A stretch of DNA of 64,000 nt from an uncultured Porphyromonadaceae bacterium. GTDB lineage: Bacteria; Bacteroidota; Bacteroidia; Bacteroidales; Muribaculaceae. The translations under genes and the position numbers were made by a program. Below the pieces are notes generated by a model that saw only the letters and a program-made list of their open reading frames with translations, did no database searches and had not been told where the DNA came from. Shown here piece by piece: positions 41,209 through 50,459 of this stretch. How positions within the stretch are numbered: the first letter of the stretch is position 1; every line of letters starts with the position of its first letter. The stretch spans positions 1 through 64,000 of the forward strand of contig CANRVB010000012.1 in assembly GCA_947643165.1 (NCBI GenBank), written 5' to 3'.

Positions 41209-41229
41209 CTTAAGCTCCGTCACTCTGGA

Positions 41230-41261
41230 TTTGCGTTTGCGCTCGCTTAATCGTAACTTTG
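41230..41261 (+). promoter_or_regulatory. promoter TTTG-N20-TAACTTTG upstream of the phosphoesterase/beta-propeller gene
   Basis: TTTG 41230-41233, TAACTTTG 41254-41261. Confidence 0.7.
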
Positions 41262-41288: not shown

Positions 41289-43733
41289 ATGGTAAAAAAA
41301 TACACAATTTTAATGATGGCGCTTGGTGCGGCGGCTTTCAACATGTCGGCGCAGTATCAGGGCCGTGTTTTTGAGGATGTCAACGGGAACGGCATCTATG
41401 ATAAAGGCGACAAACCGCTCGCGCAAGTCGCTGTAAATGACGGACTTAACGTCGTGAAGACCGGAAAGGACGGTCGCTTCTCGATTTCCGGTAGTGGGAA
41501 CCCGTTCGTAACAATCACTGTACCAACAGGTTACATGGCAAATCGTGGTCATTACATACCCGCCGGAAGCACTCAGAACTACGATTTCCCCCTCAAACGC
41601 TACACCCCGAAGATAGGCAAGGACGGACGCCATAGCTTCATCCAAGTCACTGACTCCGAAATATTTAACACTACCGGAAACGACAAGTGGATCTCCGATG
41701 TCAAGCAGTTGGCCACCGACCAGGGCGCCGCCTTCGTGGTCCATACAGGCGACATCTGCTACATCAAAGGTTTGAAGGAGCATATCACCTTGATGAACAG
41801 CGACTTAATGGAGATTCCAGTTTACTATTGCGTCGGAAATCATGACCTTGTGGCAGGTAAATATGGCGAAGAACTCTTCGAAAGCATCTATGGTCCTGTG
41901 TATTACTCATTTGACGTAGCCGGCACCCACTATGTAGTGACCCCGATGCCGGGTGGCGACCACCGTCCTTCGTACACTACCGATCAGATTGCACGTTGGT
42001 TACGCAATGATCTTCAGGCAGTTAAGCCCGGCACACCCGTTATCATGCTCACACACGACCTGCTGACCAACGGAAATGAATTCCTGTATGGCACAACAGA
42101 GAAGCTAAACCTAAACGACGCCAACCTAAAAGCCTGGATATATGGACATTGGCACATCAACCACATGAAACAGCAAGGTGATGTCGTGACCATCTGCACC
42201 TCCACTCCCGACAAGGGTGGCATAGACCACTCGACAGGCTCTTACAGGCTGATACACACCGACATGCGTGGTAACATAGAGTCGACTCTGGTATATCCGT
42301 ACCTGCATGACCATGCTGTGATTGCGAGTCCGCAAGGAGAATCGTCAACCGGCACTGTGACGGTTAACGCATATTCATCCACATCGCCGGTAAAATCAGT
42401 CATAATCAGCTGTGAATCAGAAGGAAAGACGGTAATCAAGAATCTGAAACTGAAACAGCAGACCGACTGGAGCTGGACTGCGCGACTTCCGGAGGCAGCC
42501 TTGGCCGAAGGCAAGGATATGAAGCTGACAGCCAGAGTGATATACAACTCAGGAAAGGAAACCACAGCCGAATCAATGTACCGTCATACGGCTCCCAAGG
42601 CATATGAGAGCGGAAGCGACTGGACAAACCTCGTGAAGAACGCGGCGCACAACGGTGGCGTGGTCACTGACGCACACATCGACAGCACTGCCAGTCTCGC
42701 ATGGGTAATGAACGTAGGATCAAACCTTTACATGACATCGCCGCTGGTATATGACGGCATGGTATACACAGCGTCGGTCGATGAAAACATGAAGGGCGGG
42801 GCTGCTGTGTACGCACTCGACGCCGCTACAGGAGAACTGAAATGGAAAACTCCCGTCAAAAATTCCATAAAGAACACCATCGCGATAACCGACGGTAAAG
42901 TTTTCGCCCAAGACACTGAGGGTCAAATATATGCACTGAATGCCAAAGATGGCAGCATCGCATGGGAACACAAACTGCCAGCCCGCGGTCTCCCGGCCAT
43001 GATAGAGGGTCTGGCAGCCACTGATGGCAAGGTATTTGCCGGCACCGGCAAGGCTCTGTCGGCTTTCGATGCCAACAGCGGCAAACTGTTATGGCGCAAC
43101 GATGAATGGAATCAGGGAGAGGGTACAACCTCGACACTGGCTGTAGGTGCCGGAACAGTGATAGGCTCTGTGCAATGGAGCGCATTGTATGGCAACGATG
43201 AAAAGACCGGCAAGAAACTATGGTCGGAGAGCAAGGAGGGTCTGAGCAACCGAGGATCGACTCCGGCCATACATGGAAACCTGGCATATCTGGTGTCGAT
43301 GGAGAGCTTTTTCATAATCGATGCGACAAGCGGCCGGATAATAGCCCGCAAGAAACTGCCTATGAAGGTCGACGCTACATCAACTCCACTGCTGACTGAT
43401 AGCGAGATAGTGTTCGGGACATCGGAAAATGGCATAGCCGCTATTGACAATGAGACATTTGAGGTAAAATGGATATGTCCGACAGGTAAGTCGCTGATCT
43501 ACACCTCTCCATATACACGTCCGGATGCATGCACATCGGAAACCAGTCCGATAATGTGCGGCGATGTGATATATACCGGTGCTTCTGACGGCAAGCTGTA
43601 TGGCATTGACAGAAAGAGCGGTAAAACAGTGTGGCAGCATGATTGCGGGGCTCCGGTGTTCAGCTCGGTGGCCATAAGCGGTAATTCAATGTATGCCACA
43701 GACTTTGGTGGAAACGTATACTGTTTCAGATAA
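41289..43733 (+). CDS. secreted calcineurin-like metallophosphoesterase fused to C-terminal PQQ-like beta-propeller
   Basis: Signal peptide; 'FIQVTDSEI', 'VVHTGDICYI', 'YYCVGNHDLVAG', 'GHWHINH'; then PQQ-type repeats 'AVYALDAATGELKWKTPV', 'QIYALNAKDGSIAWEHKL', 'KLYGIDRKSGKTVWQHDCG'. Confidence 0.85.
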   Translation: MVKKYTILMMALGAAAFNMSAQYQGRVFEDVNGNGIYDKGDKPLAQVAVNDGLNVVKTGKDGRFSISGSGNPFVTITVPTGYMANRGHYIPAGSTQNYDFPLKRYTPKIGKDGRHSFIQVTDSEIFNTTGNDKWISDVKQLATDQGAAFVVHTGDICYIKGLKEHITLMNSDLMEIPVYYCVGNHDLVAGKYGEELFESIYGPVYYSFDVAGTHYVVTPMPGGDHRPSYTTDQIARWLRNDLQAVKPGTPVIMLTHDLLTNGNEFLYGTTEKLNLNDANLKAWIYGHWHINHMKQQGDVVTICTSTPDKGGIDHSTGSYRLIHTDMRGNIESTLVYPYLHDHAVIASPQGESSTGTVTVNAYSSTSPVKSVIISCESEGKTVIKNLKLKQQTDWSWTARLPEAALAEGKDMKLTARVIYNSGKETTAESMYRHTAPKAYESGSDWTNLVKNAAHNGGVVTDAHIDSTASLAWVMNVGSNLYMTSPLVYDGMVYTASVDENMKGGAAVYALDAATGELKWKTPVKNSIKNTIAITDGKVFAQDTEGQIYALNAKDGSIAWEHKLPARGLPAMIEGLAATDGKVFAGTGKALSAFDANSGKLLWRNDEWNQGEGTTSTLAVGAGTVIGSVQWSALYGNDEKTGKKLWSESKEGLSNRGSTPAIHGNLAYLVSMESFFIIDATSGRIIARKKLPMKVDATSTPLLTDSEIVFGTSENGIAAIDNETFEVKWICPTGKSLIYTSPYTRPDACTSETSPIMCGDVIYTGASDGKLYGIDRKSGKTVWQHDCGAPVFSSVAISGNSMYATDFGGNVYCFR

Positions 43734-48623: not shown

Positions 48624-49231
48624 TGTCCTGTGATGATAGATTGATGATTTAATATGCAAAGATAACTCTTTCTGAGGAAAGAATGTGTGTAAGAGAGCTT
48701 CTAAAATCGGGGAAATGTGTAAATTGCAGTTGTCTGTGATGCAAATACAAACGAACTGTGGCGGATCGCTATCCTGTGGCGTCGCAAACAAGAAGGTATG
48801 GAATCAGCATGCGGCAACAGCCGGCAGTCATGTGCAAGGTGTAAGGCTCCTGTTGTTTATCCGGAAGTAACAGAAACTGTCAAAAAATGAAAGTGCACTA
48901 CTTCACAGTAGCGCACCTCCCTCATAACCAAAATTCAAGTATATATTTTTTGCTTGTCTAACCGGCCGACTGACCAATAGGGCAATCGGTTTAGTGGTGC
49001 AAAATTACATCATAGGGAGGTGACTGTCAATAGTGTGAGAGTAAACAAAATCTAAATAACCTTAAGGCAGAGTATGTTTTGTGTTTCTATAACTACTATT
49101 TGAAAGTGTTTAGTTAATATTATGAGAGGGATGTGTGAATTGGTGTTGCGGGGCTATGTGGAGCATGGGTTGAAGCGGATATTTTGACTATTATCCAAAT
49201 TACTCTCGTTCGGCAATCCCCCCAAATAAAT

Positions 49232-49263
49232 TTTGGCATTGCGCTCACTTATTCGTAATTTTG
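49232..49263 (+). promoter_or_regulatory. tandem promoter 1: TTTG-N20-TAATTTTG
   Basis: TTTG 49232-49235, TAATTTTG 49256-49263. Confidence 0.7.
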
Positions 49264-49307
49264 GCTGACGCCCGAATTACTTCCGTTCGGCAATCCCCCC
49301 AAATAAA

Positions 49308-49340
49308 TTTGGGCATTGCGCTCACTTATTCGTAATTTTG
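49308..49340 (+). promoter_or_regulatory. tandem promoter 2: TTTG-N21-TAATTTTG
   Basis: TTTG 49308-49311, TAATTTTG 49333-49340. Confidence 0.7.
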
Positions 49341-49384
49341 ATTGTCTTCCAAATTACTCACGCTCGGCAATGCCCAAAATAAAT

Positions 49385-49416
49385 TTTGGCATTGCGCTCA
49401 CTTATTCGTAATTTTG
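49385..49416 (+). promoter_or_regulatory. tandem promoter 3: TTTG-N20-TAATTTTG, 5 nt before rlmN ATG
   Basis: TTTG 49385-49388, TAATTTTG 49409-49416; ATG 49422. Confidence 0.75.
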
Positions 49417-49421
49417 TATTC

Positions 49422-50459
49422 ATGAATGAGAAAGAACCCCTGTTGGGTCTTACGCCCGATCAATTGCGCGAGGTGGCAGCCACATGCGGTCTGCCACGTT
49501 TTGCCGCCGGCCAGATAGCTCGCTGGCTGTATCAGAAACGTGTGACTTCGATAGACTCGATGACCGATATATCGGTAGCAGGCCGTGAGCGTCTGAAAGA
49601 GCGCTACTGCGTGGGCCGCACGGCACCGTTGGCAGAAGCGCGAAGCAAGGACGGGACTGTAAAATATCTGTTTGAGGGTGTCGGCGGTCATGACGTTGAG
49701 GCGGTGTATATACCGGATCACGATCGTGCGACACTGTGCGTAAGCTCGCAGGCGGGTTGCAAAATGGCTTGTGCATTCTGTATGACTGGCCGTCAGGGAT
49801 GGCACGGCCAACTGACTACCTCCCAGATAATCAACCAGGTGCTGTCGATACCTGAAAGCGAGACGCTGACCAACATAGTGTTCATGGGTATGGGCGAGCC
49901 GATGGATAACATTGATGCCGTGATGGGCGCGATAGAGATATTGACTGCCAAATGGGGTATGGCATGGAGTCCGAAACGTATAACAGTGAGCTCGGTGGGT
50001 GTACTTCCGGCACTGAAACGTCTGCTTGATGAGACTCATGTGCATATAGCCATATCCTTGCATCTGCCCGATACGACAAAACGCGCAGAAATGATGCCGG
50101 CAGAACGTGCATGGCCTATCAACAAGGTGATAGACCTGTTGCGCGATTATGATTTCGCCCATCAAAGACGTCTGTCGTTTGAATACATAATGTGGAAGGG
50201 GGTGAACGATTCACCTCGTCAGGCTATGGCGCTGTCGCGTATGTTGCGCGGTGTGGACTGCCGTATAAATCTGATACGTTTCCACTCAATACCCGACTCT
50301 CCGCTGATGCCGGCAAGCATGGCTGACATGGAAGCTTTCCGTGACCGACTGAATGATCTCGGTATAATAGCAACAATAAGGGCATCGCGCGGTGAGGATA
50401 TAATGGCGGCGTGCGGTATGCTTGCGGGCAAGAAGCAGGAAAAGAGCAGCAAGGAGTGA
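49422..50459 (+). CDS. rlmN: 23S rRNA (A2503-C2)/tRNA (A37-C2) methyltransferase RlmN
   Basis: Radical SAM 'CKMACAFCMTG', 'TNIVFMGMGEPMDN', 'ISLHLPD'. ATG 49422 (track start 49386). Confidence 0.95.
   Translation: MNEKEPLLGLTPDQLREVAATCGLPRFAAGQIARWLYQKRVTSIDSMTDISVAGRERLKERYCVGRTAPLAEARSKDGTVKYLFEGVGGHDVEAVYIPDHDRATLCVSSQAGCKMACAFCMTGRQGWHGQLTTSQIINQVLSIPESETLTNIVFMGMGEPMDNIDAVMGAIEILTAKWGMAWSPKRITVSSVGVLPALKRLLDETHVHIAISLHLPDTTKRAEMMPAERAWPINKVIDLLRDYDFAHQRRLSFEYIMWKGVNDSPRQAMALSRMLRGVDCRINLIRFHSIPDSPLMPASMADMEAFRDRLNDLGIIATIRASRGEDIMAACGMLAGKKQEKSSKE

Follow-up and report, generated by a model that had tools for sequence, protein, structure and literature searches.

A dispersed family of palindromic, promoter-like units, with a triple array upstream of rlmN in an uncultured Porphyromonadaceae bacterium

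The array upstream of rlmN

The window analysed here, a 64,000-nucleotide stretch of the genome of an uncultured Porphyromonadaceae bacterium (G000), contains rlmN on the forward strand at 49422..50459, recognized by the Pfam domains Radical_SAM and RlmN_N. The region upstream of the gene consists of three direct repeats of a 67-bp unit with start-to-start spacings of 77 and 76-77 nt, an arrangement which the earlier note had pointed out, all on the forward strand; the repeats are evident in the sequence itself and in matches to a covariance model, with E from 6e-22 to 2.5e-18 within the window. Each unit is a long hairpin, in which a left arm, AAATTAC or GAATTAC, is followed by a conserved inner loop of the TCACGCTCGG type, a hairpin centred on a AAATAAATTT-type sequence, another inner loop, GCGCTCACTTATTC, and finally GTAATTTTG; the TTTG of the -33 box is part of the hairpin's 3' half, and the unit closes with the -7 box, TAATTTTG. 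Unit 1 (49197..49263; 74 bits, E 2.2e-19) has its left arm at 49197-49203, TTTG at 49232-49235 and TAATTTTG at 49256-49263; the same parts of unit 2 (49274..49340; 70.5 bits, E 2.5e-18) occupy 49274-49280, 49308-49311 and 49333-49340. The gene-proximal unit 3 (49351..49416; 82.4 bits, E 6e-22; DNA fold z = -2.87) starts with a left arm at 49351-49357 and has a core palindrome at 49367-49395, exactly as the earlier note had quoted it, with TTTG inside the palindrome at 49385..49388, a right arm at 49408-49414, and TAATTTTG at 49409..49416.

The boxes, which are separated by 20, 21 and 20 nt in units 1, 2 and 3, respectively, are of the sigma-ABfr type (TTTG-N20/21-TAATTTTG), like the Bacteroides promoter with TTTG at -33 and TAnnTTTG at -7 (PMC7366714), and all three predicted promoters are directed toward rlmN. 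The last box ends at 49416, 5 nt short of the ATG at 49422. Because the -7 box has been reported to occupy positions -12 to -5 (PMC9723704), the position of this box in unit 3 predicts a transcription start at 49421, one nucleotide before the ATG, and the rlmN message would be leaderless or nearly so. Unit 3, the predicted active promoter, is likely to be the promoter of rlmN, and the two upstream units are likely to be passengers or weak additional promoters. Among the non-unit promoters of the same genome, 17 of the 70 gene-upstream TAnnTTTG boxes end at most 9 nt from the ATG, suggesting that leaderless messages are numerous there; in B. thetaiotaomicron about 3.7% of leaders are under 10 nt (PMC7366714).

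The 8-nt linkers between the units, previously described as unrelated, are the turns of a second type of hairpin, whose stem is formed by the -7 box of one unit and the left arm of the next: GTAATTTTGGC-TGAC-GCCCGAATTAC at 49255..49280 between units 1 and 2, and GTAATTTTGA-TTGTCT-TCCAAATTAC at 49332..49357 between units 2 and 3. The same fold recurs at other arrays, with compensatory stems GGC/GCC and GAC/GTC. Ahead of unit 1, the sequence attttg ending at 49186 had been suggested to be the end of an older unit; since array starts elsewhere follow a native box, it reads at least as well as part of a decayed native -7 box of rlmN, GGATATTTTG (49178..49186, forward strand), although a remnant of an older unit would fit too. 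No empty rlmN site could be aligned with the array, relatives having 61-71% protein identity, and the rlmN genes of congeners carry no unit.

The right half of one more, degraded unit (TTTG-N20-TAACTTTG; 41230..41261, forward strand) is found in the window 27 nt before the ATG at 41289, within a weak covariance-model match (41212-41261, 16.3 bits, E 0.068); it is likely to form the promoter of the gene that starts there.

A dispersed family of units

The unit belongs to a dispersed family with about 33 copies in this genome. BLAST finds 25 matches, and copies 93-97% alike precede unrelated genes. A covariance model built on 52 aligned copies and applied at a threshold of E<=0.01 gives 35 matches in this genome, 15 in G030, 6 in G031, and a few weak ones elsewhere among the congeners; 27 of the 34 congeners have none. 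At the family level, 113 of 397 genomes match, in 17 of the 30 genera, and at the level of the order, presumably Bacteroidales judging by the promoter type, the units are carried by 28 of 247 genomes, in 20 genera.

Neither the plasmid nor the phage collection searched contains the unit, and an origin from either source was rejected on these grounds. No Rfam family matches it, which likewise removes the known RNA families from consideration. CRISPR was discarded too: spacers are lacking, and only hairpin turns lie between units. In the open-access literature searched there is no prior description of the family.

Placement at gene starts and promoter layout

The right ends of 107 out of 124 arrays face an ORF on the same strand, whereas 12 face one on the opposite strand and 5 were left unassigned, i.e., 107 of 119 have the same-strand arrangement; the left ends of arrays have no such preference (65 vs 51). 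The earlier note would have abandoned its reading had the repeats been scattered genome-wide with no relation to gene starts; they are indeed scattered, but tightly tied to gene starts. In this genome, the genes downstream of units encode RuvX, YbeY, a chromate transporter, Dxr, alkaline phosphatase, peptidase M64, ArgRS, GH2, GH20 and RlmN. These are unrelated and form no regulon, whether for rRNA/tRNA methylation or otherwise. Copies were also read by eye ahead of a tRNA-Ser gene and a cobalamin-riboswitch-like leader.

The promoter reading has good support at the sequence level. The TAnnTTTG box is intact in 110 of the 112 gene-proximal units, and in 108 of these 110 TTTG is found 19-21 nt upstream of it, which is the sigma-ABfr layout; the placement of units directly ahead of tRNA and riboswitch starts agrees with this. 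The -7 box is broken in 8 of 41 upstream units vs 2 of 112 proximal ones (p 4e-4), and the proximal unit therefore appears to do most of the work. Tuning by copy number, as envisaged in the earlier note, is possible, and copy number does differ between orthologous sites, with 0, 1 or 2 units at one (thrS-type) promoter. In promoters of the argS and thrS types, the hairpin core has been swapped for unrelated hairpins, and TTTG at the right spacing, as judged by eye, is usually kept. With a near-identical promoter placed before unrelated genes in one genome, the unit satisfies, as far as sequence goes, the definition of a putative mobile promoter.

A second motif, GGGATATTTCGCAAA, stands some 30 nt upstream of a native TAAnTTTG box ahead of six unit arrays of this genome (L003, L006, L007, L024, L031 and L036), and also elsewhere in it (L431, L432, L433 and L439); it is possibly a regulator site or another dispersed type of promoter.

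Insertion sites and target boxes

Comparison of orthologous sites reveals clean insertion. Within one genus, the region upstream of argS exists in an empty form, TTTTTTGTACCTTTGCAGTTTG (L223), and in a filled form, TTTTTTGTACCTTTGC[78 nt ending CTACCTTTGC]AGTTT (L221), so that the 78-nt insert lies between TACCTTTGC and AGTTT, exactly behind the native -7 box. In genome G262, a 65-nt unit has entered a holin-like, phage-type ORF at GGTTGCTTT|CTCCGTGG; the ORF is uninterrupted in 12 relatives, and, read by eye, the insert is in frame and the reading frame appears to stay open. At a second promoter, taken for that of thrS from the neighbouring translation, the orthologues with 0, 1 or 2 units have exchanged hairpin cores among close relatives. 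Direct repeats accompany the inserts: TACCTTTGC in the case of argS, TTT in that of the holin-like ORF.

The clearest view of the targets comes from G524, a genome of another family, where each of the ten units immediately follows a native TAnnTTTG-like box, the sequences upstream of these boxes being unrelated; at two of the sites an older, diverged unit comes first, and the box to its left was the one counted. The element itself, ACTTCGTCTTAGATACT...CGTATCTTTG, is nearly constant. The variable bases of the target box are TC, as in the element, in 8 of 10 cases, vs 16 of the 101 boxes upstream of genes in 790 kb of the genome (16% expected; p about 1e-5 by the binomial and 6e-5 by Fisher's test). 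The two differing targets are TACC and TATT; because the same TATC right end follows them, the right box must be the element's own and not a duplicate, and a simple target-site duplication was rejected for G524 as the source of the arm match.

Over pooled loci, the native box matches the unit arm in 23 of 28 cases vs 7.4 expected by permutation, a count that takes in some unit remnants and orthologous insertions and mixes genera favouring different boxes; for these reasons G524 is the cleaner test. Arm-matching boxes are also common in this genome, where the background is AT 16, AC 13, AA 11 and TC 10 of 70. Native box and arms differ at some sites (argS L206; L251), and some native boxes may be remnants of lost units. 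Homing to -7 boxes is not universal, since the copies in G553 and G547 sit off such boxes and have other arms.

Complementary arms and the nature of the unit

The left arm of the unit is the reverse complement of the -7 box at its own right end, and this complementarity is maintained while the bases change. In a set of 138 units, pairing between the left arm and the first variable base of the box is A-T in 65, T-A in 63 and C-G in 8, with 2 unpaired; for the second variable base, the counts are C-G 106, T-A 19 and A-T 7. The 18-pair structure has a covariation score of 0.266, vs 0.089 when shuffled and 0.02-0.07 when slid. At orthologous argS sites the pair has switched from C:G to T:A (L206) and to A:T (L203 and L204), and where copies in other families lie apart from promoters, the arms are different (AATCTGC/GCAGATT, AATTTGC/GCAAATT), with complementarity kept. 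An A stands opposite the third T of TTTG in just 4 of 138 units, and the left arm therefore almost never completes an antisense -7 box. An attC/integron site, considered for the GTTAGGC found in some left arms, was rejected, as the AAC/GTT triplets vary with the arms.

The unit is probably a mobile palindrome of a REP-like, non-autonomous kind, which seeks out -7 boxes for insertion and reconstitutes the promoter there with the -33 and -7 boxes that it carries. A different, unlikely origin of the same pattern would be purely mutational, with the arms covarying through correction of quasi-palindromes by template switching in replication and the units spreading by recombination or gene conversion between promoters, without any dedicated targeting. 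Template switching is known to act on long imperfect hairpins, short direct repeats beside the units permit gain and loss through slippage, and upstream regions of the thrS type turn over wholesale between species that are 99% identical in the gene. Template switching, however, would also be expected to restore pairing in the conserved inner loops and opposite the third T of TTTG, both of which stay mismatched, and conversion would hardly yield clean insertions with empty sites in unrelated flanks, or placement behind 10 different native boxes in G524.

Comparison with known systems

Small dispersed hairpin palindromes are typical of REPs and REPINs, which are moved by RAYT (TnpA_REP, a Y1 transposase), and Bacteroidetes have a RAYT subclass, 2.6, with atypical flanking structures (PMC6006769). 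The units resemble these elements in being short, non-coding, multicopy and dispersed, patchy between relatives, and often clustered. It is nevertheless quite unlikely that they are ordinary REPs of this kind. A Y1 gene was not found in this genome or in G030, G227, G094, G268, G396 and G402, some of these assemblies being incomplete; in another count, Y1_Tnp is missing here, in G030 and in 5 of the 25 genomes that carry units. None of the 25 Y1 loci examined is flanked by a unit, the nearest weak matches being hundreds of bases away. The GTAG tag is lacking, and the GTAG/CGTC foot with short stem and tail was not seen: the left foot of the unit is CGCTCGG or CGTTCGG, and CGTC, without the CCA tail, is confined to some g41 copies. 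Units occupy the 5' ends of genes, whereas REPs prefer 3' ends; their arms vary from site to site yet always pair, and promoter boxes lie inside them. Another palindrome, GGGACAAAAGAACCGTCCC, which apparently represents a REP family of its own, flanks one RAYT gene with the YIHQNP motif (L335 in G336).

Rickettsia palindromic elements (RPE), about 150 bp long (PMC10969869), and CGTC-tagged REPs, with 8-9 bp stems, a CGTC tag and a CCA tail (PMC3733652), are likewise palindromes without a known mobiliser, and can insert in frame into coding genes, as the unit did in L174; neither, however, has been described as homing to -7 boxes. An invertible promoter was considered and rejected, all 52 of 52 aligned copies having one internal orientation relative to the -7 box, although these copies were gathered by similarity to that orientation and a flipped copy could be missed. 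By its placement, arms and promoter content, the unit is not a REP/RAYT element, a CGTC-REP, an RPE or an inverton, though it is partly like each.

Promoter-carrying MITEs, such as Correia and the BrickBuilt elements of Porphyromonas, are larger and have conventional terminal repeats. Like these elements and the putative mobile promoters, the unit would be a non-autonomous element giving a promoter to downstream genes, but its end is itself a -7 box, its insertion point is a -7 box, and its arms vary per site. No autonomous IS that could be its parent was noticed. BrickBuilt_5 also precedes argS (PMC4596501). Ordinary sigma-ABfr promoters, with which the unit shares its boxes, have neither a conserved spacer nor an inverted arm.

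A role of the unit as RNA, in which read-through from the upstream native box would produce a leader hairpin that attenuates or stabilises the message, is very unlikely. The upstream native -7 box is intact at several sites, so that a hairpin-containing leader could be made, and in RNA a T that faces G at the mismatch would form a U-G pair; but T faces T or C at the mismatch in 84 of 138 units, upstream boxes are broken more often than proximal ones, Rfam gives no match, and placement follows the distance between the -7 box and the start, not the leader. The earlier note offered as one possibility a stacked operator for a repressor that controls rRNA/tRNA methylation. Such an operator, with a dimeric repressor bound to the palindrome and three copies tuning rlmN, is highly improbable: the palindrome does overlap the -33 box, and the central CAAATAAATTTG is conserved in A1, but the stem varies with compensation and cores are exchanged while the -33 and -7 boxes remain, unlike in an operator read by its sequence, and the unit also stands before unrelated genes of this genome and is missing from rlmN in congeners.

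A proposed mechanism

If the unit is a palindrome homing to -7 boxes, the following scheme may be envisaged. A palindrome of ~65-75 nt would insert directly 3' of a -7 box TAnnTTTG, bringing a -33 TTTG in its central hairpin and ending in its own -7 box, so that the gene would keep a complete promoter made by the element. The left arm may act as a base-pairing guide that recognises, in single-stranded DNA, the target box as well as the end of the element itself, by analogy with the pairing of guide and cleavage site in IS200/IS605 transposons, where element-internal guide sequences pair with the target, or left flank, and with the right end (PMC6006769). We propose such a guide because it is the simplest account of the arm pairing, the target match and the self-like right end. 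The left arm of the unit can pair with both ends, and targets are complementary to this internal sequence in the proportions given above for G524 and the pooled loci. The unit, however, encodes no transposase and would depend on a putative enzyme acting in trans; its arms are 7 nt long rather than tetranucleotides, and one arm would serve both ends, so that the equivalence in function is put forward by analogy. The right end of an inserted unit would again be a good target, and repeated insertion could build tandem arrays such as the three units of rlmN; unequal recombination is an alternative route of array growth.

In its strongest form, which we put forward only tentatively, the proposal is that the unit represents a new class of guided mini-transposon: a gene-less element of 65-75 nt, whose left arm pairs with a -7 box to choose the site and whose right end restores the box, and which spreads across a bacterial order by inserting into core promoters and rebuilding them, the arm deciding which. 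Should this be the case, core promoters of housekeeping genes (tRNA synthetases, ruvX, dxr, tRNA genes) would have been repeatedly replaced, order-wide, by a short mobile hairpin, and genes could gain entire promoters from a transposon-like element of ~70 bases. This would explain the spread and duplication of promoters in these genomes, provide a natural assay of the changes that the unusual -33/-7 promoter can tolerate, and implicate a putative enzyme that targets promoters via base pairing. It would also be a warning that repeats ahead of genes in these genomes should not be read as operators.

Several related structures were seen along the way. At positions ~1650-2040 of L177 (G266) there is a repeated array in which units with an unlike hairpin core are nested in other units, beside the host unit's AAATTTG. 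G553 contains many copies of a longer related element, GTTAACAAACATTCGTTTGTTGAATCTG...GATTTGTTAGTT, without -7 boxes (L340-L355). At four further loci (L179, L181, L185 and L187), a unit-like palindrome with the arms AAATCTTG/CAAAGATTT faces the 3' end of a gene, and the downstream DNA is >99% identical in the four genomes.
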